DNA of 38,593 nt from Nitrososphaerota archaeon (GTDB lineage: Archaea; Thermoproteota; Nitrososphaeria; Nitrososphaerales; Nitrosopumilaceae): the NCBI GenBank assembly GCA_028820595.1, contig JAPPIP010000018.1, positions 1 through 38,593 on the forward strand. The letters are read 5' to 3'. A model generated the notes under the pieces. It worked only from the letters and a program-made list of their open reading frames with translations. It did no database searches and had not been told where the DNA came from. This document shows positions 396-34,331 of this stretch, one piece after another; position 1 is the first letter of the stretch, and each line of letters begins with the position of its first letter. The position numbers and the translations under genes are program-made.

Positions 396-2084
396 GTGGC
401 CGATACGAAGGAACCAAGCCGGGACCTCATACCGGTGAGGATGCTCGCCCAGTACGCGTACTGCAGGCGCCTCGCGTACATGGAGTGGGTCCAGGGCGAG
501 TTTGCCTACAATGCGGAGGTAGTTGACGGCGCGCACAAGCACAGGAACGTCGACAAGCCCTCCAAGAGGACAAGGCCCCCCAAGGGCGGCGATGCCGAGG
601 GCCCCGGGGACGTCATACACGCGCGGTCCGTCATGCTTTCCGATGCCAAGCTGGGACTGGTTGCAAGGATGGACCTCTTGGAGGTTGACGGCGGCGTTGC
701 CACGCCGATAGAGTACAAGCGCGGGACGACTCCGCAGACTCCCACCGGCACGTACCCGGATCACGTGGTCCAGGTCTGCGCCCAGGGGCTGATCCTGAGG
801 GCCAACGGATACGCGTGCACGGGCGGGATCATATACTACGTGGGCTCCAAGCAGCGCGTGCGCGTGGACTTTGACGAGCAGACGGTATCGATGACCATGC
901 AGATGATCGGCGAGATGCGGGAGATGGCATCAAGGGACGCGATGCCGCCCCCGCTAGTCGACAGCCCAAAGTGCCCCAGGTGCTCGCTGGTGGGGATCTG
1001 CATGCCGGATGAGACAAACCTTCTCGGCGGCGCCAGCACGCAGCGCGGCATTACAAAGGACCAGGTCAGGCGCATGTATCCGATCCGCGACGATGCCGTC
1101 CCCGTGTACGTGCAGGACCAGGGCGCGCGCGTATCAAAGTCGGGCGACTGCATACACGTAAAGACCGCAGACGAGACCAGAAAGATCCGGCTCATCGACG
1201 TCTCCGAGCTCACCGTCTTTGGCAACGTGCAGATCACCACCCAGACGATAAGGGAGCTCTGCGGGAGGGACATACCGATCTGCTACATGACGTACGGCGG
1301 GTGGTTTGTCGGCATGACGCGCGGCCTTGCAAGCAAGAACATCGGACTGAGGATAGGCCAGCATCTGGCATACTCCAAGACCAGTTCGCGCATGGCCATC
1401 GCGCGCGAGATCGTGTCCGGCAAGATAAAAAACAGCATAACCATGCTCAGGCGGAACCACGGCTCGCCCCCCGCCGGAAAGATTGCGGAGATGGAGGGGT
1501 TCGCACAGAGGGCGCTCGCCGCAAGGCAGTACGACGCGCTGCTCGGGATAGAGGGGATGGCGGCGCGCCTTTACTTTTCCGAGTTTTCCGGCATGCTAAA
1601 GTCCGACTCCGCCGCCTTTGACTTTGAGGGCCGGAACCGGAGGCCGCCCAAGGACCCGGTCAACGCCATGCTGTCGTTCCTGTACGCGATGCTGACCCGG
1701 CAGGCGACCGTCACCGCGTCAAAGGTCGGACTGGACCCGTACCTGGGGTACCTCCACATGCCAAAGCACGGCAAGCCCGCGCTGGCCCTCGACCTGATAG
1801 AGGAGTTCCGACCACTCGTGGCCGACTCCACGTGCCTGACGCTCGTGAACACCGGCGAGATCTCAGAGTCAGACGTGGTACGGTCGGACTTCGGCGTGGC
1901 GCTCACTGCAGAGGGGAGGAGGACTGTCATAAGGGCGTACGAGCGCAGGATGGACGCGTCGGTCATGCACCCGCTGCTCGGGTACGGCGCAAGCTACAGG
2001 AGGATACTGGAGACCCAGGCAAGGCTGCTTTCCAGGCACATTCTAGGCGAGATTGCGGCGTATCCGGCGTTCCGCACGAGGTGA
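396..2084 (+). CDS. cas4-cas1: Cas4-Cas1 fusion, CRISPR adaptation nuclease-integrase
   Basis: This 562-residue protein joins two adaptation enzymes. The N-terminal part (about 1-205) is Cas4, a RecB-like exonuclease that trims and PAM-selects prespacers. Visible are Cys23, the nuclease residues Asp92 and Glu106-x-Lys108 (PIEYKRG), and the Cys193/196/202 cluster (CPRC...GIC), giving four Fe-S cysteines. The C-terminal part (about 225-562) is Cas1, the integrase, with Glu386 (GIEGMAARLYF), His454 (GYLHMPKHGKPALALD) and an acidic LIEEFRP segment for metal binding. A fused Cas4-Cas1 is characteristic of subtype I-G/I-U. The start is GTG 396, supported by a TATA-like box 26 nt upstream. cas2 begins 3 nt after the stop, so both are probably one operon. 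No key residue appears to be missing. Confidence 0.95.
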   Translation: MADTKEPSRDLIPVRMLAQYAYCRRLAYMEWVQGEFAYNAEVVDGAHKHRNVDKPSKRTRPPKGGDAEGPGDVIHARSVMLSDAKLGLVARMDLLEVDGGVATPIEYKRGTTPQTPTGTYPDHVVQVCAQGLILRANGYACTGGIIYYVGSKQRVRVDFDEQTVSMTMQMIGEMREMASRDAMPPPLVDSPKCPRCSLVGICMPDETNLLGGASTQRGITKDQVRRMYPIRDDAVPVYVQDQGARVSKSGDCIHVKTADETRKIRLIDVSELTVFGNVQITTQTIRELCGRDIPICYMTYGGWFVGMTRGLASKNIGLRIGQHLAYSKTSSRMAIAREIVSGKIKNSITMLRRNHGSPPAGKIAEMEGFAQRALAARQYDALLGIEGMAARLYFSEFSGMLKSDSAAFDFEGRNRRPPKDPVNAMLSFLYAMLTRQATVTASKVGLDPYLGYLHMPKHGKPALALDLIEEFRPLVADSTCLTLVNTGEISESDVVRSDFGVALTAEGRRTVIRAYERRMDASVMHPLLGYGASYRRILETQARLLSRHILGEIAAYPAFRTR

Positions 2085-2087
2085 GGT

Positions 2088-2384
2088 ATGGTGGCGCGGA
2101 ACAGGTACTTTGTCTGCTATGACGTGCGGGACCCGCAGCGCCTTACGCAGACGTACAAGACGATGTGCGGATACGGGGACCGCGTCCAGTATTCGGTGTT
2201 TCTGTGCGACTTGAGCGACGTCGAGCTTGTAATGATGAGGGGTGACCTGGAGAATGTCATGAACACCAAGGAGGACAGCCTCGTCATCGTCAACGTCGGC
2301 TCTGTCGAAAAGAGCGGGGCGCGGATAACCACTGTCGGCACGTCCCTTGGAACCCAGAGGAGGGATGCGTCAATCGTGGTGTGA
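2088..2384 (+). CDS. cas2: Cas2, CRISPR adaptation protein
   Basis: This 98-residue protein has the expected Cas2 size. Its N-terminus RYFVCYDVRDPQRL carries the first ferredoxin-fold strand and the conserved Asp after a Tyr (YDVRD). The segment QYSVFLCDLSD is the typical second conserved strand. Cas2 dimers bridge two Cas1 dimers in the spacer-integration complex. ATG 2088 follows the cas4-cas1 stop by 3 nt, so the two are translationally coupled. The CRISPR leader begins directly after its stop codon. Confidence 0.95.
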   Translation: MVARNRYFVCYDVRDPQRLTQTYKTMCGYGDRVQYSVFLCDLSDVELVMMRGDLENVMNTKEDSLVIVNVGSVEKSGARITTVGTSLGTQRRDASIVV

Positions 2385-2557
2385 TGTGCTGCGAGAGGCC
2401 GGGAGCAGAGGCGCGCATGGGAAGGCCCTCGCACACGCTATATATGCCCGGCGTGGCACTGGTACGGTGTAGCAGGACATGAGCCGCATATCGGACACAA
2501 CTGGAGACAGAGTGACGCAACCTGCCTGCCGGCGCCGAATCTAGGCGTGTGTGCGGG
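2385..2557 (+). promoter_or_regulatory. CRISPR leader
   Basis: This 173-nt non-coding stretch lies between cas2 and the first repeat. A TATA-like element (GCTATATATG, 2437-2446) would start transcription near 2470 and carry it into the array. The orientation is supported by the repeat's 3' end ATTGAAGC, which is like the crRNA 5' tag of other type I repeats, and by the broken repeat lying at the opposite end of the array. Confidence 0.75.
2437..2446 (+). promoter_or_regulatory. TATA box of the CRISPR leader
   Basis: GCTATATATG is the only strong A/T-rich box in the GC-rich leader. It lies about 115 nt before the first repeat. Confidence 0.55.
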
Positions 2558-5500
2558 CTTTCCGCAACGAGTATGTTGCGGCCCCATTGAAGCATGCGAA
2601 AGACATGTCTAAGTTTCTTGGACTTTTCGTGCTTTCCGCAACGAGTATGTTGCGGCCCCATTGAAGCGGCGGTCTTTTCACCGGATACGAGCAGGGAGGC
2701 CCACCTTTCCGCAACGAGTATGTTGCGGCCCCATTGAAGCCACGAGGTTCGGCATGGAATAGCAGATTGTGCCCACCTTTCCGCAACGAGTATGTTGCGG
2801 CCCCATTGAAGCCTTGCCGCCGCCCTCGGAGCCGTTTCGGCGTGCGCCTTTCCGCAACGAGTATGTTGCGGCCCCATTGAAGCGATATGTGGAAACAAAG
2901 TAGTGGGGACAGACACCAAACTTTCCGCAACGAGTATGTTGCGGCCCCATTGAAGCTGGCAAAGCGGCTTCAAAACCATCGGCGGCATCATCCTTTCCGC
3001 AACGAGTATGTTGCGGCCCCATTGAAGCCTGGCCGACATATACGCTCACGTCGCCGGGGGCCGCGAGCTTTCCGCAACGAGTATGTTGCGGCCCCATTGA
3101 AGCGTGCCGTCTACTTCGCACGCCCTGATGACCGCCCCGCTGCTTTCCGCAACGAGTATGTTGCGGCCCCATTGAAGCACAGTTACCATGCCTGTATGAA
3201 AAAAAATGAATATACTTTCCGCAACGAGTATGTTGCGGCCCCATTGAAGCCGCTCCCTGACGTCCGCTACGAGCACGCCGATGTCCGCTTTCCGCAACGA
3301 GTATGTTGCGGCCCCATTGAAGCCTGAAGTCGGTATTTGATCTCAACGCGCTGGTTGACCTTTCCGCAACGAGTATGTTGCGGCCCCATTGAAGCGCGTA
3401 CGACGACTCGACCCTCGGCATATGCTACGGGCTTTCCGCAACGAGTATGTTGCGGCCCCATTGAAGCGGTATAATCCGAATAGTTGTTGGACCAGTGGTA
3501 TTCCACGCTTTCCGCAACGAGTATGTTGCGGCCCCATTGAAGCCGTTAGCGGTTTGGAGTTGAGACTTGCAGGCATTGAGCTTTCCGCAACGAGTATGTT
3601 GCGGCCCCATTGAAGCATGAACGTATTTTCCGATGATCAGATGAAGTCCCATGACTTTCCGCAACGAGTATGTTGCGGCCCCATTGAAGCCGCCCCAAGG
3701 AAAGGCGTCGGCCAATCCGCCCATTCGGCTTTCCGCAACGAGTATGTTGCGGCCCCATTGAAGCATTGCCTCGCAAACAGAATCCCAAATTTTGGGATAA
3801 TCTTTCCGCAACGAGTATGTTGCGGCCCCATTGAAGCAAACTTCAGTATGAGATTCAGTATGATGAGTACTGCTTTCCGCAACGAGTATGTTGCGGCCCC
3901 ATTGAAGCACCGCCTGGCTCTTCCGCCGCCTGCAGCGCGTGGAGGCTTTCCGCAACGAGTATGTTGCGGCCCCATTGAAGCGTACCAGTCCCGCGGCGAC
4001 ATGGCTTCCGGCCCCGGACTTTCCGCAACGAGTATGTTGCGGCCCCATTGAAGCTCAATTCAACGGTGTGAATTCCGACTCCGAAGCCGCCAACTTTCCG
4101 CAACGAGTATGTTGCGGCCCCATTGAAGCGCAAAAACCGCATTGAAAGTCTAAGAAACTTAGACATTCTTTCCGCAACGAGTATGTTGCGGCCCCATTGA
4201 AGCGGCAATGCAGAGAAGGAAGAGGAAGAAGCAGTGATCCTTTCCGCAACGAGTATGTTGCGGCCCCATTGAAGCTCCAATTCCTTCCTGTCCCTGCCCA
4301 GTCCCTCGAGCTTTCCGCAACGAGTATGTTGCGGCCCCATTGAAGCAATTCGTATAATTGTAGGGAAGCGGCATGACTGAAGCTTTCCGCAACGAGTATG
4401 TTGCGGCCCCATTGAAGCTTCTCCCCGCCCCACACGATGTTGATCTTCACGTCGTCTTTCCGCAACGAGTATGTTGCGGCCCCATTGAAGCCCGCAGGGG
4501 CCGCAGAACCTCCTCGTCTCGGTGCGGCTTTCCGCAACGAGTATGTTGCGGCCCCATTGAAGCCCGGCGCGTCCGCGGAGGTCGAACGCTATGCAGCAGT
4601 CTTTCCGCAACGAGTATGTTGCGGCCCCATTGAAGCGGTCTATGTCATGTCCGAATTATACTCGGCGGAGATGCTTTCCGCAACGAGTATGTTGCGGCCC
4701 CATTGAAGCGTGCAATCCCATCCAGGTGCGCACGGCGCAGACTTCTTTCCGCAACGAGTATGTTGCGGCCCCATTGAAGCAGGCCGATAGGGGATTTCAT
4801 AGCCCTGATGCTGAAGCTTTCCGCAACGAGTATGTTGCGGCCCCATTGAAGCGAAGGGGGGGTTCAAGAAAAAGGCCCCCAATGAAGACTTTCCGCAACG
4901 AGTATGTTGCGGCCCCATTGAAGCCGGCGCTACAACGGTGACGTGATACCGCAATCCGCCCTGCTTTCCGCAACGAGTATGTTGCGGCCCCATTGAAGCA
5001 TTGAATTTCCGAGGTCGCGCCCCTCTGAGACGGCGCTTTCCGCAACGAGTATGTTGCGGCCCCATTGAAGCTTGTTCCGTATTGCCACACTTGCTGTAAT
5101 GTGGAAAATCTTTCCGCAACGAGTATGTTGCGGCCCCATTGAAGCCACCGCAAGTGTCACAAACAAGGAAAGTTCCCTCCTCTTTCCGCAACGAGTATGT
5201 TGCGGCCCCATTGAAGCGGACGTTGACGTGATCAGGTCGAGCTTTGCCCACGCGCTTTCCGCAACGAGTATGTTGCGGCCCCATTGAAGCGTAGGCTCAA
5301 CATCGCTGACTCTGAATCCATCGCTACTTTCCGCAACGAGTATGTTGCGGCCCCATTGAAGCATTGAAGCCGCCGGCAGTCCAAGGGAAGCCATCCGAAC
5401 TTTCCGCAACGAGTATGTTGCGGCCCCATTGAAGCTCGTCCAAGGCGTATGTGGTGAACTGCGCCTCCCCGCTTTCCGCAACGAGTATGTTGCGGCCCCA

Positions 5501-7371
5501 TTGAAGCTCCCCCCGGCTGGACGTCGCCGCCTCACACCAGATGCTTTCCGCAACGAGTATGTTGCGGCCCCATTGAAGCCTCGACCATGCGTCCGTCGAC
5601 GGCCGCCGCGCTGGCTTTCCGCAACGAGTATGTTGCGGCCCCATTGAAGCTGCCTGCGCTCCTCGAGGGTCAGGGCGGCGCGGCGGCGCTTTCCGCAACG
5701 AGTATGTTGCGGCCCCATTGAAGCAGGTCCGACGTCCTCTACTATGAGACGGATTCCGACTTTCCGCAACGAGTATGTTGCGGCCCCATTGAAGCATGTG
5801 GTCGACCGCGGACCTTATCAGCGCGATTGCGCTTTCCGCAACGAGTATGTTGCGGCCCCATTGAAGCTGCGGCTGGTTCATTTATTTACACCTCCGCTGC
5901 CGCCTTTCCGCAACGAGTATGTTGCGGCCCCATTGAAGCAGCGCCCGCGGGTTTGTCAGCCGCGATACCATCAGGGCTTTCCGCAACGAGTATGTTGCGG
6001 CCCCATTGAAGCTGACATGCTGTGCATTTTGCCATACTTCAGGGTATTTCTTTCCGCAACGAGTATGTTGCGGCCCCATTGAAGCGTGTGGGCAGCCCTC
6101 ATGCGGCGCCACCAGCACCAGCTTTCCGCAACGAGTATGTTGCGGCCCCATTGAAGCGAAAACGCGTCGTTCAGTTCGTCGACCGCGTCAAGCTTTCCGC
6201 AACGAGTATGTTGCGGCCCCATTGAAGCTACAGCATGAACCAGAGCAAGGGCGTGGACCACGTCAACTTTCCGCAACGAGTATGTTGCGGCCCCATTGAA
6301 GCAGAAAAAGAGAAAAAGGAAATTCTCAATTTTGAGAACTTTCCGCAACGAGTATGTTGCGGCCCCATTGAAGCGATTCGGGCGACGTGATGACGCACAA
6401 GATGATCGAGCTTTCCGCAACGAGTATGTTGCGGCCCCATTGAAGCGTGCCTTTCGACTGGGTTCTCCGGCTTCGGGGGCTGCTTTCCGCAACGAGTATG
6501 TTGCGGCCCCATTGAAGCGGCCGCTTCTTTCGAGAGGGGGTGCCTGGCGAGATCGTCTTTCCGCAACGAGTATGTTGCGGCCCCATTGAAGCTACGGCAT
6601 GGACAAGGCCCCCAAGGCGCCCCGCGTCAACTTTCCGCAACGAGTATGTTGCGGCCCCATTGAAGCTGGCGGGTGGCCGTATGCCTTCCCAAGAGGGCCA
6701 TTGCTTTCCGCAACGAGTATGTTGCGGCCCCATTGAAGCAGCTTTAGCCCGGTGGAGAACTCGCCGAGCGCCGCGTCTTTCCGCAACGAGTATGTTGCGG
6801 CCCCATTGAAGCGAGCGCCACGCGTACGGCCATCGGTCGGAGCCGACGCTTTCCGCAACGAGTATGTTGCGGCCCCATTGAAGCTACTCCATGAACCAGA
6901 GCAAGGGCGTGGACCACGTCCTTTCCGCAACGAGTATGTTGCGGCCCCATTGAAGCTGCGGCATATGCAGTTTTCATGTCGCCCTTTTTGGCTTTCCGCA
7001 ACGAGTATGTTGCGGCCCCATTGAAGCCCATACTTATCGACCACCACCGCGACCAGACCGCACTTTCCGCAACGAGTATGTTGCGGCCCCATTGAAGCAC
7101 GGATTCGCAAAAGCAAAAGATGATCGACGAGACCGCTTTCCGCAACGAGTATGTTGCGGCCCCATTGAAGCAGGAAGCGGATCAGTGTGTCAATGCTTGG
7201 CACGCGGCTTTCCGCAACGAGTATGTTGCGGCCCCATTGAAGCGACAACCCATGATTTAGTAATTACCGCAACAGCCGATCTTTCCGCAACGAGTATGTT
7301 GCGGCCCCATTGAAGCTCTTGTATGACGATCATGCCGTTGACGATCCGCGCCCTTTCCGCAACGAGTATGT
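2558..7371 (+). CRISPR. Type I-G CRISPR array: 66 complete repeats, 66 spacers, one interrupted repeat
   Basis: Counted by hand, 36-nt repeats start at 2558, 2632, 2705 and so on to 7281, followed by the first 19 nt of a 67th repeat at 7353-7371. The repeat begins CTTTCCGCAACGAGTATG and ends GCGGCCCCATTGAAGC. It contains a perfect 7-bp inverted repeat, CCGCAAC-gagtat-GTTGCGG, suitable for a crRNA hairpin. Spacers are 35-40 nt, mostly 36-38. I saw no sequence variant among the complete repeats, including those at the distal end. The long minus-strand and plus-strand ORFs listed over this region, full of recurring GAATYSLRK- or NEYVAAPLK-like motifs, are translations of the repeats and are not genes. 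The array is ended by an insertion sequence at 7372. Confidence 0.98.
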
Positions 7372-7387
7372 CAGGAGTTAGGATTTA
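7372..7387 (+). repeat. Left terminal inverted repeat of the insertion sequence
   Basis: CAGGAGTTAGGATTTA. The transposase stop codon (TAA on the minus strand, 7385-7387) lies inside it. Confidence 0.75.
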
Positions 7388-8602
7388 AGGTATTTGCCAT
7401 TTGAAATTCCCGTGATGCTTTTCCCATTTTATCAATTGCTCGGCTGCGGTGGCCATGCATTTGACAAACGATACGATTGCAAAGCTCTTGCCTCCTGCCA
7501 AATTGCCGTGACGGAGATCATAATATTGCCCCGGGCGCCACAGGCCGTACGACAGCAGTGCAAAATAAAACAAAATCCGCCTCACGTGCAGCCGCCTGCT
7601 GCACGTTTTGGCAAGTGCGTCCTTTATGGTCCTAAAGCCGGTCTCCACAATCCGGCGCCTTCTGTATTCTTCCGGCAGGACATCCGCCAATTCCTTCCGG
7701 GTGCAGACGGGCAGGTTTGTGGCAAACGCAGCGCATTGGTCCGTGATCGGGGCGTCCTTGTCGCATCCGTCCCTTCTGACGACGAGCAGGTTGAACGGCG
7801 CCTTTTCCTTGGTCCTGGTGCCTGTGATGTGAAACCGCGATGCCGCGCCCCTCGTCCCCGCATCAACCTCCGTTATGGCCTTTTTTACGCGCGCGTTTTT
7901 TGCAGCGGGCATCAGAAACTTTCTGCCGCCGTCTTGCAGCCCGTTTATGGCCGCCGCGGATAAAAATTCGCGGTCCGCGAGGACCACGCCGACGGCAGGC
8001 CCCCGCCGGCCCGGCTTCTTCGGCATTTGAAGCAGGGATGTGACCGCCCTGTCCCCGTTTAGCACCGTCTTGGTGTCCAGTGGGATGTTGCAGTCCCTGC
8101 GTACCGTATGCAGCGTCAGGTGTGAGGGGAACTTTGAGGTGCCGTTCCTGGGCTTTGATGTCCTCATCCGCCCACTGAGGCTGTCCCCGTAATGCCCCGG
8201 GCCGCTGACGTCGGCCGCAACAGTGCAGCCGGATCGCACCAGGCCTTCCCTGCGCGCACGCCTCGGGATGCAGTTGACGCTGCCGCCGCACCACCGGTCC
8301 GCCCCGGCCGGATCCAGTTTCCTTGGCTTTTTCATCATCCAGCTTCCCGAAGGGATCCTCGGAACAGATTCCCCGTTCTTCTGTTTTTCAAACCTGTCTT
8401 TTTTGAGATCGCGCGACACCGATTCTGCAAACCTTTTACTGTGTGACATTGTCTGGAGCACCATTGGCATGTCGTGCCGGTTGAAACCCTTTCGCTGCTT
8501 TGAAAACTCTATGCCGGGCTTTTCAAACCTTGAAAATAAAACTCGATATTCCTTGCTGCTCAGTGTGTTTTGATGTGCGTAATTGTCTTCTCGCTTGCTC
8601 AC
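7385..8602 (-). CDS. DDE transposase of the inserted element (IS4/ISH3-like)
   Basis: This 405-residue protein starts at GTG 8602, with a TATA-like AATTTATATG about 30 nt upstream. The DDE-type core is visible: VLADREFLSAAAINGL (second catalytic Asp, with the DRE context shared by two other transposases in this window) and YRRRRIVETGFRTIK, which resembles the Y-R-E-K signature of IS4-like enzymes. The first Asp is probably in CTVAADVSG. It appears intact and lies between matching terminal repeats, so the element may still be or recently have been mobile. Its DNA is less GC-rich than its neighbours. The exact IS family was not checked. Confidence 0.8.
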   Translation of the reverse strand: MSKREDNYAHQNTLSSKEYRVLFSRFEKPGIEFSKQRKGFNRHDMPMVLQTMSHSKRFAESVSRDLKKDRFEKQKNGESVPRIPSGSWMMKKPRKLDPAGADRWCGGSVNCIPRRARREGLVRSGCTVAADVSGPGHYGDSLSGRMRTSKPRNGTSKFPSHLTLHTVRRDCNIPLDTKTVLNGDRAVTSLLQMPKKPGRRGPAVGVVLADREFLSAAAINGLQDGGRKFLMPAAKNARVKKAITEVDAGTRGAASRFHITGTRTKEKAPFNLLVVRRDGCDKDAPITDQCAAFATNLPVCTRKELADVLPEEYRRRRIVETGFRTIKDALAKTCSRRLHVRRILFYFALLSYGLWRPGQYYDLRHGNLAGGKSFAIVSFVKCMATAAEQLIKWEKHHGNFKWQIP

Positions 8603-9636: not shown

Positions 9637-10614
9637 ATGAAGTTACCTAATGAAGACAGGTTACTGGCAGAAGTTCAACTTGAACCAGTCCAAGGCTCGC
9701 GTTTCCAGCCTACAGGATTTCCATCACTTGGTGCAGCTGAATTCACGTCAATATCGAATGATACTAACACTGACTGCGTTCTAGTAGAATCCGTGCAGTC
9801 CATGGCCAACAGGCTTGAAGATGTCTGCTGGGACAAAGAGAAACTGCGTTTGGCAGATGCTCTTTCTGGCATGCCCGTTATAACGGTAAACGACAAAAAT
9901 TCCAAGTTCTTGACCAACTCGCTGCTTGAGGCGCATCGTATGAATTCATCATACATGCTTGAGGGCAGTGACAAGACCCTGAACGAAACTATCAAGCGCG
10001 AACTGCAAATAAAAGACGACGGCATCGTGGCTCGAATACCAGATTTTGCACGTTTTGTGCTTAGATACGATCCAAATTCATTGCTGCATGGACTGTTTCT
10101 GAGCCGTAAAGAATTGGCAGGTGGAAGATACAAGATGACGCGCATACTTTCTTCGTTCATTGAGGCGACAAATGTCAAGCCTGTTGTAAGTGGAGGCGTA
10201 AAATTTGACTTTGTCGATCCCAGCGGCGGCGAGGCTGGCGCTGAATCCGGGTTCGGACACATTCCGTACCCTAGAACAGAATACTCTGCAGAGTCTATCG
10301 TTGCATACTTTAACGTGGACATATCCTTGCTCAGATCATACGGGCTTAGCGACGTTGCAAATAATTTCCTATTCACGCTGGCACTCTGGAAGATACGATT
10401 CTTCTTGAAGCACGGACTCCGACTGAGAACCGCCTGTGACTTGAAAATTAAAAAAGAGATCCGAGTCTCTCAGCCCAGATCGATGAAAATCCCCGATCTT
10501 GATGTCCTAAGCAAGGATGTCACGTTGCTGATTAAAAAATGCAAGTCTGAGGGTCTGTTTACGGAAAAACCTCTGACCGTGACGTACTCTGCCAAAAAAG
10601 CGGATAAAAAATAG
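9637..10614 (+). CDS. csb1: Csb1 (Cas7 of type I-G), crRNA-binding backbone subunit
   Basis: This 325-residue RAMP-family protein is the repeated backbone subunit that would coat the crRNA spacer in the Cascade-like effector. The N-terminus shows the Csb1/GSU0053 signature: GSRFQPTGFPSLGAA (20-34) followed by LVESVQSMANRLEDVCW (49-65). A central Gly-rich segment (FVDPSGGEAGAESGFGHIPYPRTEYSAE) and the conserved FNVDISLLRSYGL region follow. Length is normal for the family. It is the first gene of the effector operon, with a TATA-like box 25 nt before ATG 9637. csb2 begins about 10 nt after its stop in the same frame. Confidence 0.92.
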   Translation: MKLPNEDRLLAEVQLEPVQGSRFQPTGFPSLGAAEFTSISNDTNTDCVLVESVQSMANRLEDVCWDKEKLRLADALSGMPVITVNDKNSKFLTNSLLEAHRMNSSYMLEGSDKTLNETIKRELQIKDDGIVARIPDFARFVLRYDPNSLLHGLFLSRKELAGGRYKMTRILSSFIEATNVKPVVSGGVKFDFVDPSGGEAGAESGFGHIPYPRTEYSAESIVAYFNVDISLLRSYGLSDVANNFLFTLALWKIRFFLKHGLRLRTACDLKIKKEIRVSQPRSMKIPDLDVLSKDVTLLIKKCKSEGLFTEKPLTVTYSAKKADKK

Positions 10615-10623
10615 GCATGTGCA

Positions 10624-12096
10624 TTGTTCGCCATCGCCATACGTTTTATCCACGGCAGGTATCATGCTACCCCTTGGGGCAAACATGTTAACGAAGGCGT
10701 GCCAGAATGGCCGCCAACCCCGTGGAGGGTTTTACGAGCCATCATTGCAGCATGGAAACGCGTTAGGCCAGACCTTGCCGACGAGGTTGTGTGGCCCATA
10801 CTGCAAAAGCTGGCCTTTGAACCTCCGGCCTATGGCCTCCCAGACGCCAGCGTATCGCATACGCGACATTACATGCCTGCAAACCAAAAAAAGGTTTTTC
10901 TGATCATGGATACGTTCGTTGTAATGGGGCAAAGACCTGTCTACATGGTATGGAATAACGTGACATTAAACCCGGACGAATCATCCCTGTTGGAGATGAT
11001 GTTGTCAAACATTCACTACCTTGGGCGGGCCGAATCTTGGTGCGACATATCGATTGCACCTTCCACTCCTTCATGCAACTGTCTGATATTGTCTGAGGGC
11101 CAAAGCATGAACCCTTCCCAAGAAATTGTGCGGGTGCTTGCCCCAAACCGACATGCGTGCTTTGAGGATCTTGACGCCACTGCGGCCGGATCGGAGAATC
11201 TAAAGTCCATAACAGTAACAACCAAGACTCTTCAGGACAATAAGTATGCAGATCCGCCCGGTAGCAGGTGGTTGCTGTATGCCAGGCCGCAAAACTGTTT
11301 TGAGCCCCGAAATGACACGCAAGCCAAAACCTCATCAAACCGCGTAACGTTGGTGCGGTATGCTGTGACTGGAGCCACGAGACCTGACGTTAGAGACACG
11401 TTGCGCATAGGAGACATGACTCGTACCGCGTGTATGTCTAGGTACGGAAAAGCAAAAAATGGTGAAAGCTCTGCAACATTCACTGGCAAGGACGCCGACG
11501 GACATCCGCTTACCGATCATATGCACGCCTTCTTCCTTCCCACGTATGAGAAACAAAATCAAGAGATTGACCACGTCACGATTCTTGCAAAAAATGGCTT
11601 TGACAGTGACGAACTTTACTTGCTGTCCGGATTAAAGCGCCTCTACAGATACGATACTGACCCCGTAAATCTCCTGTTCCAAGGATGCGGCACGCTGCAG
11701 GACTTCTCAACCGTTCCAATATTTGGCACTGGTAGGAAGTGGGTGTCAACAACCCCCTTCGTGTTAACCCGGCACACAAAGTACCGAGGAAAGGGAAGCA
11801 AGAAACGTATGGTTGATGGCCTTGGGGATCAGATCCGATCCGAGATGGGAAAAAGATATGGTCAAACACATAATCTGGAGAGAGTTACTGTAATCGACGC
11901 TCAGGAGAACGTCGGCAACACACTCTTCAAGCCACACGAATTTTTCAGGTGGCGCCGTCATGGCAGCAAGGGAAGCGATCAGGCATACAACCTGCGTCTC
12001 GAATTCAAAGAAGCGATCAGCGGTCCATTGACGCTAGGCTATGCGTCCCATTTCGGCTTGGGAATGTTTGCTCCGACAGGAGATACAGCCTCATGA
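10624..12096 (+). CDS. csb2: Csb2 (Cas5-Cas6-like), crRNA processing and 5'-end subunit of type I-G
   Basis: This 490-residue protein starts at TTG 10624, the only start that preserves the conserved N-terminus AIRFIHGRYHATPWGKHVNEG. The following WPPTPWRVLRAIIAAWKR is the hallmark of the Csb2/GSU0054 family. In type I-G this protein replaces separate Cas5 and Cas6 subunits. The C-terminus GPLTLGYASHFGLGMFAP contains the glycine-rich loop typical of Cas6-like RAMPs. No separate cas6 gene is present in the window, so Csb2 should be the repeat-cleaving nuclease. Its TGA overlaps the cas3 ATG (ATGA at 12093-12096). Catalytic histidines were not assigned. Confidence 0.9.
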   Translation: MFAIAIRFIHGRYHATPWGKHVNEGVPEWPPTPWRVLRAIIAAWKRVRPDLADEVVWPILQKLAFEPPAYGLPDASVSHTRHYMPANQKKVFLIMDTFVVMGQRPVYMVWNNVTLNPDESSLLEMMLSNIHYLGRAESWCDISIAPSTPSCNCLILSEGQSMNPSQEIVRVLAPNRHACFEDLDATAAGSENLKSITVTTKTLQDNKYADPPGSRWLLYARPQNCFEPRNDTQAKTSSNRVTLVRYAVTGATRPDVRDTLRIGDMTRTACMSRYGKAKNGESSATFTGKDADGHPLTDHMHAFFLPTYEKQNQEIDHVTILAKNGFDSDELYLLSGLKRLYRYDTDPVNLLFQGCGTLQDFSTVPIFGTGRKWVSTTPFVLTRHTKYRGKGSKKRMVDGLGDQIRSEMGKRYGQTHNLERVTVIDAQENVGNTLFKPHEFFRWRRHGSKGSDQAYNLRLEFKEAISGPLTLGYASHFGLGMFAPTGDTAS

Positions 12097-14441
12097 AATA
12101 CGCTCGATTTGAAGATTTCTTTCGCAAGGCGACGGAACACACGCCGTATTCATACCAAAAAGAATTGGCCAAGCCGGGAACTCACCATAGCATCGTAAGC
12201 GTCCCGACGGGTGCCGGAAAGACAGAGTCCGCCGTACTCTGCATGTGGCTGTGGAAGAGACTAAACGGCAAGAACGTTCCAAAAAGACTCGTGTACTGCC
12301 TTCCGATGAGGGTTCTTGCGGAGCAGACGCATGCCAAGGTGACCAGATGGATAAAGAATCTCGCCCTTGAAGAGCGCATATCAGTCGAATTGCTTATGGG
12401 GGGCAGCGATACGAGAATCGAGAGGATACTTCCACACAAGGAATGCGTAATAATCGGAACCCAGGACATGCTTGTTTCTGGCGCTCTCAACCGGGCATAT
12501 GGCAGTAGCCCGGCCGTCTGGCCAATCGTATTTGGACTGCTTAACAACGACTGCATGTGGATCATGGACGAGATTCAAATTATGGAAAATGCGCTGCCCA
12601 CATCCATACAGCTTGACAGCTTTCGACGTTCTATGGGCGCATTTGGCCCCCACAGCACGGTATGGATGTCGGCCACGGTAAACCCCGACTGGATCAAGAC
12701 TGTGGACTTTAACGAAGGCGCGAGTACGTACAGGCTCAATCCTTCAAAGGTGGAAAAAGCCCTCAAGAAAAGGCATCATGCCCCAAAGACACTGCACGAG
12801 GCGCCGTTCAAACTTAACAAAGAATACAGCAAGGAGGATGTGAAAAAAATAATGCGCCTCCACGTACAAGAAACCACTACTGCAATTATTGTCAACACGG
12901 TAAAGAGGGCGCAATCAATTTTTAAGATCCTGTCGCAAGATTATGACTGCACGCTGATTCACTCCAGATTTCGCGGGTTCGAGAGGCACTCCCTTAATGA
13001 GTGGCTCTCAAAATTTAAGGATCAACAGGATGATGGACGGGACCAAGTCATTATCTCGACACAGGTGATCGAGGCAGGAGTGGACATATCGGTCAGGACC
13101 ATGATTACGGAGCTTGCGCCGTGGGCCAACATGATCCAGAGATTCGGGAGGTGCAACAGGTATGGCAGCCTCCACGATGCGAACGTTTTTTGGATAGACA
13201 TGGATGATACGTCATTTCCACCGTACGAAAAAACTGATATGGACAAGGCAAGGCGCGAACTAAATAAGCTCTCGGGCAGATCTGTGTCTCCCGGGGATCT
13301 TCCAGAATTCAAGGATCAAAAAACGTTTGATGCCGTTTTGCGCCGGCGCGACATCATGGGGCTGTTTGACACAACACCAAACCTGTCCGGCGGTTATACT
13401 GACGTTTCCCAATTTGTGCGCAGTCTGGAGCAGCGGCTTGACGTTGGTGTGTTCTGGCGCAACCTTGGCGGAAGCACGTCGGGGCAGCCCCGACCCGAGC
13501 CAGAAGAGATATGCGACGTCCCAATACACGAGATGCACAGCTTTCTCAAGGGCAGAAAGGGGTGGGTCTGGAGCTATGCAAACGAGTCTTGGGAGCGGGC
13601 CTATTCCGGTGACATACTCCCGGGCCAAACGGTCATGCTGGACAGCACAGACTCGGGATACTCTAGTGTAACGGGCTGGGATCCATCACACACGGATCCG
13701 GTCGAGCCTGTGTTGGAGCCTGTCTCCATGCCAGAGTCACACTACAGCGACATGCGCTCTAAACTGGGTGCGTTCGTAACGCTTGAGGATCATACGCTGC
13801 ACGTGCACGACGAGGCGCGCTCCATGCTCAAAAAAGAAACACACATGGAACGCAGCCTCAAGGAAGCCATCCTGATTGCCGCGAAATACCACGATGTCGG
13901 CAAGGCTCACCACGTTTTTCAGAATGCCGTACGGGGTAATGGTAACGGCAGTGACCCCCAAACCAAGCAGGTGTGGGCAAAAGGGCCGTCCCTGTCACGC
14001 TATGAGCGAACAGGATTTAGGCACGAAGTCGTAAGCATGCTGGCGTATCTTGGGCAACGCGACAGGCCCAAAAAAGAGCTCCGGAATCTAGCTGCATATC
14101 TGATACTCTCTCATCATGGCAAGGTCCGCCTCTCTCTTGGCATCCCCCGGTCCCGCTCTGACAGTAGCATGCGCAATGGCCACATGCTGGGTGTCTCACT
14201 TGGGGGCGAGACATTTCCAGAATTTGTCAGCAAGGAGGTATCTGTCGCCGAGACCGACATTGACATGTCCCTTGCAAGCATGGGCCGAGACCCTTCCGGA
14301 AGGCCGTCGTGGTCTGAGAGGACAATAAGGCTGCGAGACGAGCATGGCCCGTTTAGGCTTGGGTATATGGAGACGTTGCTCAGAAGGGCTGACTGGCTTG
14401 CAAGCGAAAAGGAAGGCAGGGGTGAATACAGGCGTGAATGA
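12093..14441 (+). CDS. cas3: Cas3 helicase-nuclease with C-terminal HD domain
   Basis: This 782-residue protein unwinds and degrades target DNA after effector binding. Order of parts: Walker A VPTGAGKTE (about 38-45), motif II DEIQ (159-162), SAT motif MSATV (192-196), motif VI QRFGRCNRYG, then a C-terminal HD nuclease with AAKYHDVGKAHHVF (His600-Asp601), RHEVVSMLAYL and LSHHGKVR. Helicase-then-HD is the order described for type I-G/I-U Cas3, whereas most Cas3 proteins have HD first. The listed ORF opens at 11949, but ATG 12093 is the real start: it overlaps the csb2 stop and gives a protein beginning MKYARFEDFFRKAT. The stop overlaps the start of csx17. Confidence 0.93.
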   Translation: MKYARFEDFFRKATEHTPYSYQKELAKPGTHHSIVSVPTGAGKTESAVLCMWLWKRLNGKNVPKRLVYCLPMRVLAEQTHAKVTRWIKNLALEERISVELLMGGSDTRIERILPHKECVIIGTQDMLVSGALNRAYGSSPAVWPIVFGLLNNDCMWIMDEIQIMENALPTSIQLDSFRRSMGAFGPHSTVWMSATVNPDWIKTVDFNEGASTYRLNPSKVEKALKKRHHAPKTLHEAPFKLNKEYSKEDVKKIMRLHVQETTTAIIVNTVKRAQSIFKILSQDYDCTLIHSRFRGFERHSLNEWLSKFKDQQDDGRDQVIISTQVIEAGVDISVRTMITELAPWANMIQRFGRCNRYGSLHDANVFWIDMDDTSFPPYEKTDMDKARRELNKLSGRSVSPGDLPEFKDQKTFDAVLRRRDIMGLFDTTPNLSGGYTDVSQFVRSLEQRLDVGVFWRNLGGSTSGQPRPEPEEICDVPIHEMHSFLKGRKGWVWSYANESWERAYSGDILPGQTVMLDSTDSGYSSVTGWDPSHTDPVEPVLEPVSMPESHYSDMRSKLGAFVTLEDHTLHVHDEARSMLKKETHMERSLKEAILIAAKYHDVGKAHHVFQNAVRGNGNGSDPQTKQVWAKGPSLSRYERTGFRHEVVSMLAYLGQRDRPKKELRNLAAYLILSHHGKVRLSLGIPRSRSDSSMRNGHMLGVSLGGETFPEFVSKEVSVAETDIDMSLASMGRDPSGRPSWSERTIRLRDEHGPFRLGYMETLLRRADWLASEKEGRGEYRRE

Positions 14442-16560
14442 GCACGAGCTAAGCGGGTGCACAACGACTCCGATGTCAAACTATCTAAAGTCGCTGGGAC
14501 TGGCCAGGATACTCTCAAGAAACGATCCCACACTTATGGCGTTCTGGAGAAATGACCGTCTTGTCATACAGTCGTCCATGACAAAGAATGAGATCTGTCA
14601 ATACGTCCTGCGCGACTATGCCCCATCCCCGATAATAAGCCCGTGGAGCTACAACAAGTACCAAAAGACCCGGGATGCATTAAAGCCCAGATTGGACTCT
14701 GACGATGACCGGTACCGAATGTACAGGGACACGATATCTCGCCTGAAGCACACAGTGTTTGAAGATCTTAAGAGAAATACCGGCCTGAAAAAAATTGACA
14801 AGGCCTCAATAGACAAACACAAACTGCTCTTGCTCAAACTGTGCCGCAACATGCTGCCTGACGAGTACGTCTCGTGGCTAGACGTGGTATCGGTACTTGA
14901 TAATACTGAAAAACCACGATTTGCACCCCTGCTTGGCTCTGGTGCAAACGATGGCAACTTTGACATGGCAGAGAATTTCGTAAAATGCCTGCTGCTTGTG
15001 CTGCAACCTGAAGCGCACCAGGAAAGATCTGAGAAGTGGCTGAAGGCTTCATTGTTTGGGGGAGTAGTTGGTTTGGAACGCATAAACACAGTGGGGCACA
15101 ATCCGGACGGTAGCGGTGGTCCGAACTCTGGTGCGGGGTTTGAGGGCGAGTCAATGTCAAACCCGTGGGACTATGTGCTGTTAATGGAGGGCACTCTGCT
15201 GTTTGCAGGGGGCGTTTCAAAGCGCCTGTCAAACACAAGCGGCAAGGCAATGTTCCCATTTGCGGTAGGCGCATCCAATGTCGGGTATGCTACTGCCTCC
15301 ATTGACGATACGGACGGAGGGCAGGAGCCCGCCTCCAAGGGGGAGCTGTGGCTGCCCGTGTGGGGCAGGCCTTCCACGTGCGCGGAGATCGAACAGGTGT
15401 TCCAAGAGGGCCGGATGCAGGTCGGCGGCCGTCCTGCCGCTACGGGTACCGAGGCCGCAAGATCCGTGATTACCATGGGCACAGAACGGGGCATGGACAA
15501 GTTTGAAAGGTTCGGTATACTGAAGAGAAAAGGAAAACAGTACCTCTTTGTCCATTCCGGTGCACTGCGTGTTGCAGACGAGCCTGCGGCGAGCCTGCTC
15601 GATGATCTGGACGACTGGTACGACTCTGCCGTCAAAAGCAAGAGCAAGAGCAAGTCACTTGAACAGATGATAAGGAGTTATGACGGAGCCGTCATGCGGT
15701 TCTGCACGACCCGCAAGCAGCGCGACATGCTCGAAATATTGGCATCCGTCGGCAAAATCGAGGCGCACCTAGCCATGATTTCCCCTGATTCCGTGCTGCT
15801 GCAACAGCTGTCTGATGAGTGGTTGCACGAATGTTATGATGGCTCTGCAGAGTTCAGACTGGCTGCATCAATTGCATCAATCCAGCCCTCACACAAAGTT
15901 GGAAGCGTAAGGACAAATCTTGAAAAGTCCGAGAGAAGCAACATCGGTGTATGGAAGCCCTCTAAGAATACAGTCTCTTGCGTCTGGAAGAACAACGACG
16001 ACCTCATTAGAAACATGTCGCGTGTTCTGCAAAGACGCGGCGTTGAAGGACAAATCCAATCACTAAAAACAATACCAATTGAGGGGGCCATACCCACCCA
16101 GATCTCGGACATTGCACAATTTCTCGATGGAAACCTAAATTTCAAAAAAATTGGCAGTCTTGTGCTAGCACTTTCCTGCATAAAGATACGTCGTGGCATG
16201 GACTATCCATGGAAGCATGTCAGATTATCCAGAAACAACGATACTGCAATACCAGAGGCGTACGCGGTCATGAAGTTGGTCTGTCCCCCGCTGGAAAAAG
16301 ACAGTGTCAGGTATGACCTGGCCATGCTCCAGCTGCTGTCGTCAGGGCGCGTGAGTGACGCATACGCAAAAGCTGCATACATGCTGCACTCGCACGGTTT
16401 TGCGCCTCACAGCTATGACGGAAGAACCAAACGCTCGCACGGTACTACCGTGTCGAACACCGTCAAAAATCACATACTGGCCTCGCTCCTCTTTCCGATA
16501 TCAAACCAGACCAGAAACCTGCTGCTAAGGACCGTTACTAGCTATGAGCATGCAACCTGA
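14434..16560 (+). CDS. csx17: Csx17 (Cas8u2), large subunit of the type I-G effector
   Basis: This 708-residue protein is the large effector subunit, expected to recognise the PAM. The family N-terminus is visible as ELSGCTTTPMSNYLKSLGLARILS, matching the Csx17 pattern of L-x-G-C followed by YLKALG. GTG 14434 is chosen because it gives this N-terminus directly and overlaps the cas3 stop by 8 nt. GTG 14422 would add four residues, and the ORF start at 14344 is deep inside cas3. The middle has a region (MEGTLLFAGGVSKRL) typical of the family. After TGA 16558-16560 the same frame stays open for 91 more codons, described separately. Confidence 0.88.
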   Translation: MNEHELSGCTTTPMSNYLKSLGLARILSRNDPTLMAFWRNDRLVIQSSMTKNEICQYVLRDYAPSPIISPWSYNKYQKTRDALKPRLDSDDDRYRMYRDTISRLKHTVFEDLKRNTGLKKIDKASIDKHKLLLLKLCRNMLPDEYVSWLDVVSVLDNTEKPRFAPLLGSGANDGNFDMAENFVKCLLLVLQPEAHQERSEKWLKASLFGGVVGLERINTVGHNPDGSGGPNSGAGFEGESMSNPWDYVLLMEGTLLFAGGVSKRLSNTSGKAMFPFAVGASNVGYATASIDDTDGGQEPASKGELWLPVWGRPSTCAEIEQVFQEGRMQVGGRPAATGTEAARSVITMGTERGMDKFERFGILKRKGKQYLFVHSGALRVADEPAASLLDDLDDWYDSAVKSKSKSKSLEQMIRSYDGAVMRFCTTRKQRDMLEILASVGKIEAHLAMISPDSVLLQQLSDEWLHECYDGSAEFRLAASIASIQPSHKVGSVRTNLEKSERSNIGVWKPSKNTVSCVWKNNDDLIRNMSRVLQRRGVEGQIQSLKTIPIEGAIPTQISDIAQFLDGNLNFKKIGSLVLALSCIKIRRGMDYPWKHVRLSRNNDTAIPEAYAVMKLVCPPLEKDSVRYDLAMLQLLSSGRVSDAYAKAAYMLHSHGFAPHSYDGRTKRSHGTTVSNTVKNHILASLLFPISNQTRNLLLRTVTSYEHAT

Positions 16561-28665: not shown

Positions 28666-31600
28666 TCATTTCGCCGCAGGGCATATCTTGTTGTACGGGC
28701 ACCACTTGCAGTGGAAGCCGGGAGCGGGATCAAACTGCTCGTCGATTATGCGACTGCCGCAGTCCTTCACGATGTCGAGTCCCTCCTCTAGCGACTCCTC
28801 CGTCACCGCGTACTCCCTTGTCTTGTTGTCCTTTGCCGGATACACCATCGAGACTTTGGCAGGCAGCGAGCCGTACTTCTCCCTCACTGCGTGCGCGTAG
28901 ATGTTGGCTTGGGGCGACACCCTGAGCTTGTCATGGGTGATTATGGTGCGTCCCGTCTTAAAGTCCACCACCTCGTACTCGCCGTCCGGGTTCCTGTCCA
29001 ATCTGTCGATCTTTCCCTTGTATCTTATGTCATCTATGGCCAGTCTGAACTCCACTTCCACATCGACGGGCGTGTTGGGTGATGCCTCGTCCCACGTGGC
29101 GTAATTGCTTATGATATCCTCAAGGGAGGACGAGGCCTCTGCATACTCCGCCGCGTCATATTCGCTCCTGCTTAGGCTCAGCTCCTCGGCCGCCAACCTT
29201 GTGGCTTCTGCGACGTCTTGGTCGCGCCCTGACGCTCTCTCGCCTCCCAGCCGCTCCATCGCTGCGTGGATCACGGTGCCCTTTCTCATGGCCATGGACA
29301 ATCTGCTGGGTATGCGCAGTATGCGGTTGTACTTGAACTTCAGCGGGCACACTTGGTACTCTTCGATGCCGGAGGCCGACAGAGTTAGTGTCTCCTTGCG
29401 CACGAGCCGGCCCTCTGGCTTGCCGGCCACGGGCGGATCGCCGTCCATTGCGGCAGCGATGGCCGCGGCGGCCTCGTCCATGCCATCCTTCAGGGTGGAC
29501 ATGGCTCCGGAATCCCCTCTGCCGCCAGACTCTTGGTGCTCATGCGTGATCTTGGCCAAGTTTACCGTGCCGAGAACGGCCGCGACGGGGCGCGACTCGC
29601 GGACTGCCTTGCACACATCCTCCTGTATTCGTGACTTTTCCGCGTCAAGTGCGCTCTGGACGGCCGACACACTCGCCTTAGCCTTCTCGTACTCCACAGT
29701 CAACACGCTCGGGTTTGACTCATACTTCGTGTCCTTCAGGAACCTTGATGGCTCTCTCTCCTTACGGCTGTCCCCGGCTAGCTTAGGATACGACAGGTAC
29801 AGCCTGTCCTTGGCCCTGGTCATCGCCACGTACAGCAAGTTCCGCTGCTCCCAGAAGTGCAAATCGGAATCATCTGAGCGGCCACTGCCCTTGAGCAGCG
29901 CCTTTGGGATCTCAAAGTCGTCCGTCCTCGGCTTGCCGGGCATGCTGTCGTCGCGCAGTCCGGTCACAAACACCGTGTCAAATTCCTTTCCTTTGCTCTT
30001 GTGGATGGTCAGCACGCTGACCGCGCCGGCCGCGGGCTCGTCGTACTCCGCCCCGGTATCGATCGCGTCGGGGTTCTCGGCCAGCTCCACATACTCCACA
30101 AAGTCCGAGAGCCGCCTGCCGTAGTAGTGGCGCTCGTATTCCTCTGCCACGTCGTACAGCTTGTTGAGGACTGCCAAGTTCCAGGCCGCGTCTTCGTCAC
30201 CGTCCGGCGCGTTGGCGTTCTTCTTGTAGGCATCCGTGTACTCCATCATTATGCGGTACAGCGTGCCGAGCAGGCCAATCTTCCTAGACTCGTCGCACAT
30301 GCTCTTCAACTGGCGCGCAATCTCGCCTGCCTCCGCCTCTTGATCCAAGCCCGGATATCCCATCAGTGTCGCGTATACGCCGTCGTCAGGCGTGCCGTTG
30401 TCAGACGCGAGCCTCGCGGCCTTCCTGTTTATGGCCTGTATGTTGTACTCCCGTATGCCGCGCCTGCTGAGCACCAGCGATATAGAGTCGCCGGCCGTCT
30501 CAGGCGAGGCGGCTATCCGGAGCAGGGCCATTATCTCGGCCACCAGTGGGTTGCGCATGAGATTGCCCGTGCCCACCAGTGCCGCCGGAATGCCGCTTGC
30601 CCTAAGGGCGCGGGCAAACGCCTGGCAGGAGCGGTTGGTCCTGCACAGCACGGCGACCTTCCCGTGGGGAACGCCGAGGTCCGGTATGGTCTTGGCCACA
30701 AACTCGTACTCTGACTCTTCGTCGGTTGTAGCCGCCACCACCACCCGCTCGCCGGCCGGCCGCTTGGAGACCAGCGGTTTAGTGTCTCGTCCACTCTCCG
30801 CGCTCAGGAGGCCTACGGACAGCTTGGATATGTTTCCCGAGCACCTGTAGTTTTGGCCCAGCGTGACGCTTTTGTGGCCGGGATACGCATCGCGGAACTC
30901 GTCGAATATCCCGCCAAAGGCACCCTGAAAGCCCATTATGGACTGGTCGTCGTCCCCGACCGCGGTGATGTTTCCGTGGCCCGCCAGCAGCACGGCCAGC
31001 CTGAACTGCGCATAGTTGTTGTCCTGAAATTCGTCGACCAGAACATGCTGGTACTGCTTCCGGTACGTCTCAAGCACGCGCGCGTCGCGCTCAAACAGAT
31101 CCACCGTCATGGCCACCATGTCGTCGTAGTCGATCAGGTTGTGGCTGTTCTTGTACGAGTCGTACGCACGGTATACTTTTACAAGCTCTCCCAGTCTGGC
31201 GAGCGACTCGTCGTCGGGAGCCGCGGCAAGGCCGTTCCTTGCATGCCGTTCGAGGTCGTCGGCCGAAACCAGCTCCCTCTTTGCCAGCCTGACCGCTTTG
31301 AGCATCGAGGTGAGCTTGTCGATCGGGCTCTTCTCTAGATTGACTATGTTCGGGTCTATACCGAACGCGTTCATGTTCCTAAAGCACCACGCGAGCCTAG
31401 GCAGTCCGCCGAACACCACTGTACTCTCGCTCGTGCCGGTCTTGATCCGGTTGTCCTTTAGGATTTCAAGGCAGAGCGAGTGGATGGTGCCCACCCAGAC
31501 CTCCCCCGTGCCGGGCCCCAGCCTCCGGCGCATCTCGTCGGCGGCCCTCTCGGTAAAGGTCATGCACAGTATGGATTCGGGGGGTATGCCGTCGGCCACT

Positions 31601-31716
31601 AGCCGGTTGACCTTTTCTATGATGACGTGGGTCTTGCCGGATCCGGGGCCGGCCCTTATCAGAAGCTGGCCCTCGGAGTGCGACACGGCCGTCCGCTGCT
31701 CCTCATTGAGTCCCAT
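28666..31716 (-). CDS. UvrD/PcrA-type DNA helicase fused to a PD-(D/E)XK nuclease with Fe-S cysteines
   Basis: This 1016-residue protein is a superfamily 1A helicase followed by a nuclease. Helicase motifs: LNEEQRTAV (Q motif), AGPGSGKTH (Walker A, about 18-26), VDEFQDNN (motif II), VGDDDQSIMGFQGA (motif III), VLTIHKSKGKEFDTVF and YVAMTRAKDRLYL (motif VI). The nuclease (about 780-1016) shows YQVCPLKFKYNRI, KGTVIHAAMERL, KGKIDRLDR and EVVDFKTG (D...D-x-K), ending FHCKWCPYNKICP. The Cys near 785 plus the three terminal Cys match the Fe-S arrangement of AddB- and Cas4-type nucleases. Likely role: DNA repair or end resection. A TATA-like box (31740-31749) lies 28 nt upstream. Confidence 0.9.
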   Translation of the reverse strand: MGLNEEQRTAVSHSEGQLLIRAGPGSGKTHVIIEKVNRLVADGIPPESILCMTFTERAADEMRRRLGPGTGEVWVGTIHSLCLEILKDNRIKTGTSESTVVFGGLPRLAWCFRNMNAFGIDPNIVNLEKSPIDKLTSMLKAVRLAKRELVSADDLERHARNGLAAAPDDESLARLGELVKVYRAYDSYKNSHNLIDYDDMVAMTVDLFERDARVLETYRKQYQHVLVDEFQDNNYAQFRLAVLLAGHGNITAVGDDDQSIMGFQGAFGGIFDEFRDAYPGHKSVTLGQNYRCSGNISKLSVGLLSAESGRDTKPLVSKRPAGERVVVAATTDEESEYEFVAKTIPDLGVPHGKVAVLCRTNRSCQAFARALRASGIPAALVGTGNLMRNPLVAEIMALLRIAASPETAGDSISLVLSRRGIREYNIQAINRKAARLASDNGTPDDGVYATLMGYPGLDQEAEAGEIARQLKSMCDESRKIGLLGTLYRIMMEYTDAYKKNANAPDGDEDAAWNLAVLNKLYDVAEEYERHYYGRRLSDFVEYVELAENPDAIDTGAEYDEPAAGAVSVLTIHKSKGKEFDTVFVTGLRDDSMPGKPRTDDFEIPKALLKGSGRSDDSDLHFWEQRNLLYVAMTRAKDRLYLSYPKLAGDSRKEREPSRFLKDTKYESNPSVLTVEYEKAKASVSAVQSALDAEKSRIQEDVCKAVRESRPVAAVLGTVNLAKITHEHQESGGRGDSGAMSTLKDGMDEAAAAIAAAMDGDPPVAGKPEGRLVRKETLTLSASGIEEYQVCPLKFKYNRILRIPSRLSMAMRKGTVIHAAMERLGGERASGRDQDVAEATRLAAEELSLSRSEYDAAEYAEASSSLEDIISNYATWDEASPNTPVDVEVEFRLAIDDIRYKGKIDRLDRNPDGEYEVVDFKTGRTIITHDKLRVSPQANIYAHAVREKYGSLPAKVSMVYPAKDNKTREYAVTEESLEEGLDIVKDCGSRIIDEQFDPAPGFHCKWCPYNKICPAAK

Positions 31717-32607: not shown

Positions 32608-32614
32608 TTTATAG
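32608..32614 (+). promoter_or_regulatory. Probable TATA box of the SWIM-finger gene
   Basis: TTTATAG lies about 20 nt before ATG 32630 and 26 nt before ATG 32636. Confidence 0.45.
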
Positions 32615-33871: not shown

Positions 33872-33891
33872 GATCTGTCTGGGCCCGCCTT

Positions 33892-33904
33892 GGGTAATAT
33901 ACCC
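33892..33904 (-). promoter_or_regulatory. Probable TATA box of the truncated helicase
   Basis: GGGTATATTACCC, itself nearly palindromic, centred about 28 nt before GTG 33871. Confidence 0.45.
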
Positions 33905-33963
33905 TCTCGTTTGGTGGTCGGCAACCGCCCGACCCCCCTCTGGTTGCAATTACGCCGCCCGGC

Positions 33964-33998: not shown

Positions 33999-34331
33999 AT
34001 GGCGGACATATTCGATTACATCCCGATCATCTGCACCATACTGTTTGCCGCCGGGATAGTGGGGGCAATCCTATATGAGCGGGCGCGCTCCAGTCCCGTT
34101 GATGACTCGGCGGGAAGGAGGGGCAGAAAAGCAGCACCGGCGGCGGCAGCAGCAGCCGACACCGCCGCCGCGCCCCCCGCGGGGACCGGGGCGGGGAAGG
34201 CGGCAGACGCCGGGGGCGCAGCAGAAACCACCACCACCACCACCACCACCACGACAGCAACCACCACCACCGGCAAGCAAAAAGCGCCAAGGACATCCAG
34301 GGCAAGAAGAAGATCGCGCCGCCATTCTTGA
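33999..34331 (+). CDS. Small single-span membrane protein overlapping lhr
   Basis: This 110-residue frame starts MADIFDYIPIICTILFAAGIVGAILYER, one clear membrane segment (about 8-27). An Ala/Gly/Pro-rich and then Thr-rich tail follows (ten Thr in a row from an ACC repeat), with a basic end. A TATA-like box 28 nt upstream supports expression. Its last 257 nt overlap the lhr ORF in another frame. Function unknown. The tail may be partly non-functional or the lhr start may be further downstream. Confidence 0.55.
   Translation: MADIFDYIPIICTILFAAGIVGAILYERARSSPVDDSAGRRGRKAAPAAAAAADTAAAPPAGTGAGKAADAGGAAETTTTTTTTTTATTTTGKQKAPRTSRARRRSRRHS

Follow-up and report, generated by a model that had tools for sequence, protein, structure and literature searches.

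Does the newest spacer of a CRISPR array aim again, on the opposite strand, at a site that an older spacer already covered, and if so, is this a trace of primed adaptation? The question arises from a 38,593-nt stretch of a Nitrosopumilaceae archaeon (GenBank assembly GCA_028820595.1, contig JAPPIP010000018.1; hereafter the window), in which the first spacer of a long array, S1, resembles the reverse complement of spacer S22. The original prediction saw in this pair what priming would produce and named independent acquisition from related viruses as the alternative.

The genes make this a complete CRISPR-Cas locus of type I-G. The Csx17/Cas8g large subunit, Csb1/Cas7g, Csb2/Cas5-6g and Cas3g all score above their NCBIfam cut-offs, and a Cas4-Cas1 fusion and Cas2 adjoin the array. 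The order is Cas4g/Cas1g, Cas2g, the array, insertion-sequence genes, and then Cas7g, Cas5-6g, Cas3g and Cas8g:

396..2084, + strand: Cas4g/Cas1g fusion, adaptation nuclease-integrase (NCBIfam NF049935, E 7.7e-218, 724 bits against a cut-off of 560)
2088..2384, + strand: Cas2g (TIGR01573 above cut-off; PADLOC Cas2g, E 3.5e-29)
2385..2557, + strand: presumed leader, from its position between cas2 and the first repeat; related loci are arranged alike
2558..7371, + strand: CRISPR array of 66 identical 36-nt repeats and a cut 67th, with 66 spacers
9637..16560, + strand: effector genes Cas7g, Cas5-6g, Cas3g and Cas8g (NCBIfam, all above cut-off)

The genome itself (1.99 Mb in 140 contigs) is placed with the Nitrosopumilaceae via a genus-mate, an uncultured Nitrosopumilus MAG (G173), identified by its repeat and array as the MAG of locus L050. 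Cas4/1 proteins closest to that of the window are found in this MAG (62%), in a Cenarchaeum MAG (59%) and, after these archaeal relatives, in Caldilineaceae MAGs (53-55%). Caldilineaceae (Chloroflexota) loci (L045-L049, L051, L055) carry similar repeats ending ATTGAAGC/G. This suggests that archaea and bacteria have exchanged I-G systems, perhaps inside sponges. Elsewhere in the window, a gene at 28666-31716 (- strand) encodes a 1016-aa UvrD-type helicase with a C-terminal PD-(D/E)XK nuclease domain (AddA-like), beside genes for an SNF2/ResIII helicase (32609-33949) and an Lhr-type helicase (34075-37155).

S1 had been called the newest spacer. Its presumed age is read from its cas2-proximal position, as in related loci; the 90 nt that directly precede the first repeat showed no conserved leader motif. 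At the other end, the 67th repeat stops after 19 nt (7353-7371), where an ISH3-like transposase gene adjoins (7385-8602, - strand). The remainder of that repeat was not found elsewhere in the window, and the old end of the array may have been lost. The spacers and blocks that matter here are as follows:

2594..2631, + strand: spacer S1, cas2-proximal and presumed newest, a long imperfect hairpin
2605..2626, + strand: block of S1 in common with S22 (21/22, opposite strand)
4130..4167, + strand: spacer S22, the most hairpin-prone of 65 spacers
4145..4166, - strand: block of S22 in common with S1, with a perfect stem-loop, GTCTAAG-AAA-CTTAGAC, at 4148-4164
6229..6266, + strand: spacer S51, register and peptide as S60
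6885..6920, + strand: spacer S60, register and peptide as S51, with a synonymous serine codon change

The opposite-strand block of 21 identities in 22 nt was reproduced exactly, in coordinates and sequences: positions 12-33 of S1 face the reverse complement of S22 and read ATGTCTAAGTTTCTT-G/A-GACTTT (S1 and reverse-complemented S22, respectively). Across the whole overlap of the two, 23 of 28 positions are identical in an ungapped alignment. Such a block has an analytic chance expectation of 1.6e-5 windows among 66 spacers, and the pair scores 19, against an opposite-strand maximum of 13 in 60 first-order Markov shuffles of the spacer set (one shuffle attained 18 on the same strand). The similarity between S1 and S22 is beyond chance. 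Its opposite orientation is also real, since the same-strand alignment is worse (20/33).

Both spacers are AT-rich, with GC contents of 39% and 34% against 57% for the spacers of the array, which fits a common kind of source. The peptide CLSFLDF is correctly read in both, as had been reported. The block is open in further frames as well (SLRNLDI/SPRNLDM on the opposite strand, MSKFL on the strand of CLSFLDF), and none of all these frames is established. Identity declines at either edge of the block.

Only one pair in the window array scores above S1/S22, namely S51/S60, which lie on the same strand and in the same register. They have 31 nt in common and both encode YSMNQSKGVDHV, with a synonymous AGC/TCC change at a serine. 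S56 (6593-6630; YGMDKAPKAPRV) possibly represents this site in a more diverged form. As a separate observation, S44 (5725-5759) reads RSDVLYYETDS in one frame, like the YxDTDS motif of family B DNA polymerases, and may thus be directed against the polymerase gene of a virus. The back-translated S44 peptide, used as a degenerate pattern, had no match in IMG/VR.

The block shared by S1 and S22 is itself an inverted repeat, GTCTAAG-TTT-CTT(A/G)GAC, whose arms pair perfectly in S22 and include one G.U pair in S1. In addition, S1 has an outer stem (GCGAAAG/TTTTCGT) and folds across nearly its full length. Among 65 spacers, S22 ranks first and S1 fourth in hairpin propensity. A general preference of spacers for hairpins was considered and rejected, as the whole set of 65 shows no excess. 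Short palindromic similarity between unrelated genomes had been named as what would overturn the prediction; the site is indeed palindromic, but the match is too good for chance.

Taken together, S1 and S22 are probably separate acquisitions from related but diverged invaders, made at a conserved stem-loop site. Both would derive from one segment with a stem-loop, of which these invaders carried homologous copies, and the type I-G Cas4/1-Cas2 machine would have captured the two spacers separately, far apart in array time. Each capture presumably took place beside a TTN motif of its own, the two lying on opposite strands. The protospacers would then overlap by 28 bp through their 3' (PAM-distal) parts, with each 5' end protruding by 10 nt, and repeated infection by one virus lineage would suffice. 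We infer a viral or otherwise mobile source, orthology of the two sites and an origin of the pair without priming. A homologous site covered in both orientations is the best reading, and the word "re-targets" is therefore fair as a description of the outcome.

How many such overlaps should be expected without priming can be estimated with a memoryless model, in which sites are chosen at random from a recognisable target of 30-120 kb (the pool size is assumed) and opposite-strand overlaps of at least 18 nt are counted. For 65 spacers, the model gives 1.3, 0.67 and 0.33 overlaps at 30, 60 and 120 kb, respectively, and 0.13 at 300 kb. The probability of at least one overlap is 0.27-0.76 over the 30-120 kb range, and primed adaptation is therefore not needed to account for the pair. 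In such overlaps neither array exceeds random resampling: the window holds one opposite-strand overlap against 0.33-1.3 expected, and the related array described below holds four against 1.6-6.

This related I-G array belongs to the genus-mate (G173; L068, L069) and has 138 spacers and a related repeat. It contains about 10 same-register pairs, in which the starts of both members coincide or nearly so and diverged DNA mostly encodes one peptide; S51/S60 of the window array is a pair of the same kind. It also contains four opposite-strand overlaps above noise (S2/S48, S10/S17, S10/S48 and S45/S125). Repeated sampling of diverged copies can thus be seen as a habit of these arrays, and independent acquisition from related viruses is the better fit of the two explanations originally offered, given the many such cases in the sister array. 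No protein-level links between window and sister spacers rose above noise.

The same-register pairs of the sister array far outnumber the roughly 0.3-1.3 expected under the memoryless model with an assumed PAM density of 1/8. This excess suggests strongly favoured sites or selection, together with the return of the same virus lineages. In the sister overlaps, one member can also reveal what lies upstream of the other. The triplets found there are TTC, TTT, TTT and TTC; one case, from a diverged strain, has CTC, and two further sister pairs, possibly at different sites, have CGT and CTG. A TTN PAM has been reported for type I-G (PMC9638904), and the sister overlaps likely point to a TTN protospacer-adjacent motif, with the majority of triplets matching it. 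For S1 and S22 neither PAM can be read, because each spacer extends 10 nt past the other at its 5' end.

Protospacers were searched for widely. None was found for the window spacers in IMG/VR, phage records, plasmids, the archaeon's own genome or 250 genomes of the family, and an exact 21-mer gave none in GTDB representative genomes; the IMG/VR and GTDB scans used a few exact or degenerate patterns, which diverged protospacers could have escaped. In IMG/VR, neither exact and degenerate scans with the shared block and both flanks nor back-translations of the S51/S60 and sister S113/S130 peptides gave a match. Concatenated spacers gave nothing against phage records and the 250 family genomes except a 24-nt match to the S52 hairpin, which lies at a chromosome-like place in one genome (G013) and is near chance after 250 genomes. 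Plasmids returned only weak matches to the array (E 0.4), and half of the sister array returned noise against phages.

Several apparent hits were set aside. A pattern for the sister peptide QEWLMM led to two IMG/VR contigs (L070, L071) that, judged by their ORFs, are apparently unrelated bacteriophages. An 18-nt core was found in two others (L074, L075), within genes of apparently unrelated phages and in about the number expected by chance (an estimate that assumes the collection size); these contigs matched no other window spacer beyond noise. Near matches to the block within the order (five genomes besides the archaeon's own) were fewer than for a reversed-pattern control and are attributed to chance.

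The conserved stem-loop also admits another explanation. The block may be one of several copies of a stem-loop that occur inverted or in different elements, for instance a terminal inverted repeat, a transcription terminator, or a transposon-end or replication hairpin. S1 and S22 would then target different loci, and their opposite strands would carry no meaning of retargeting. We consider this unlikely, although much of the pattern agrees with it: the limits of the similarity nearly match those of the stem-loop, and since identity is confined around it and drops at the edges, the block could be a mobile or repeated hairpin instead of one locus. The two spacers also stand first and fourth of 65 in hairpin propensity in a set with no general excess, and weak opposite-strand pairs on palindromes occur elsewhere (sister S13/S129; S28/S88 of locus L047). 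However, conservation extends to the TTT loop and to the flanks, ATG and TTT, making the block wider than a bare palindrome, and the overlap offers only six flank bases. With three mismatches allowed, the archaeon's own genome still has no copy of the block beyond the array itself, and the order's near matches stay below their control.

Primed adaptation itself appears improbable as the origin of the pair. Under this explanation, S22, by then imperfectly matched, would have guided the I-G effector to the site, Cas3 would have opened it, and S1 would have been taken from the opposite strand. Where priming has been mapped, newly gained spacers are concentrated around the primed site and come from either strand (PMC4117759, PMC5059440, PMC3936756). 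For instance, 25 of 28 downstream primed protospacers of the Haloarcula hispanica I-B system were in reverse orientation (PMC3936756), and the I-F system of Pectobacterium uses both strands near the primed site (PMC4117759, PMC5059440). S1 is a leader-end spacer, shifted to the 3' side of S22 and reversed, which is the orientation of those Haloarcula spacers. Overlap with the primed protospacer itself is not singled out in these three studies, and no priming in type I-G is reported in PMC10504553 or PMC9638904.

A further hint of priming comes from the sister array, where the newer members of opposite-strand pairs lie near the leader (mean index 16.8, permutation P 0.045, post hoc and on four non-independent pairs), while same-register pairs show no such bias (P 0.69); over all overlap pairs, P is 0.14. 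Yet random resampling already predicts one pair like S1/S22, and S2-S10 show no nucleotide similarity to older spacers, in a test that nearby non-overlapping acquisitions would escape. The geometry of this one pair is compatible with priming, but the proposed link to it is unsupported. The broader idea that I-G priming in Nitrosopumilaceae gains spacers at nearly the position of an older, decayed protospacer but from the other strand, with the leader-end overlaps as its trace (S1/S22; sister S2/S48, S10/S17 and S10/S48), seems more doubtful still.

It is highly improbable that S1 was copied from the S22-repeat junction of the array or that the similarity is coincidence: the alignment with reverse-complemented S22 does extend about 10 bases into the repeat (TGC-GAAAGA / TGCGGAAAGA), an extension with a frequency of 6e-4 among other spacer segments, but with 66 of 66 repeats identical it is implausible that S1 should contain diverged versions of both the repeat and S22, the GAAAG of S1 is accounted for by the hairpin of this spacer, where it forms the outer arm, and the figure of 1.6e-5 for the 22-nt block speaks against pure chance.

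In summary, separate acquisition from diverged relatives remains the preferred reading, and the S1/S22 overlap is an ordinary phenomenon, expected when an array repeatedly samples the same viruses. Overlapping spacers in long arrays can inform on an adaptation system even when the virus is not known; here, they point to a likely PAM for type I-G in archaea of this kind and to repeated sampling of the same viral sites. They also advise caution, as priming should not be read from one opposite-strand overlap, above all where the site is palindromic.

The gene set, with its Cas4-Cas1 fusion, is that of the type I-G systems of Geobacter, Methanosarcina and Thioalkalivibrio (PMC10504553, PMC9638904). 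The repeat length of 36 nt, with ATTGAAGC/G as the repeat end in relatives, and a spacer length of about 37 nt are shared as well, and the likely TTN motif of the sister array would agree. Unlike in those three, the host is an archaeal ammonia-oxidiser. With priming in Haloarcula hispanica I-B and Pectobacterium I-F, the pair has in common a newer spacer near an older target on the opposite strand, and its orientation agrees with the downstream bias of Haloarcula hispanica (PMC3936756). However, priming in those systems yields clusters of spacers around a site and needs the effector and Cas3, whereas here there is one pair, with no cluster and no mapped target. A close parallel is recurrent acquisition from the same or related viruses, in which spacers from diverged copies recur within one array, as in S51/S60 and abundantly in the sister array; S1/S22 differs in its opposite orientation, its 10-nt offset and its position on a palindrome.
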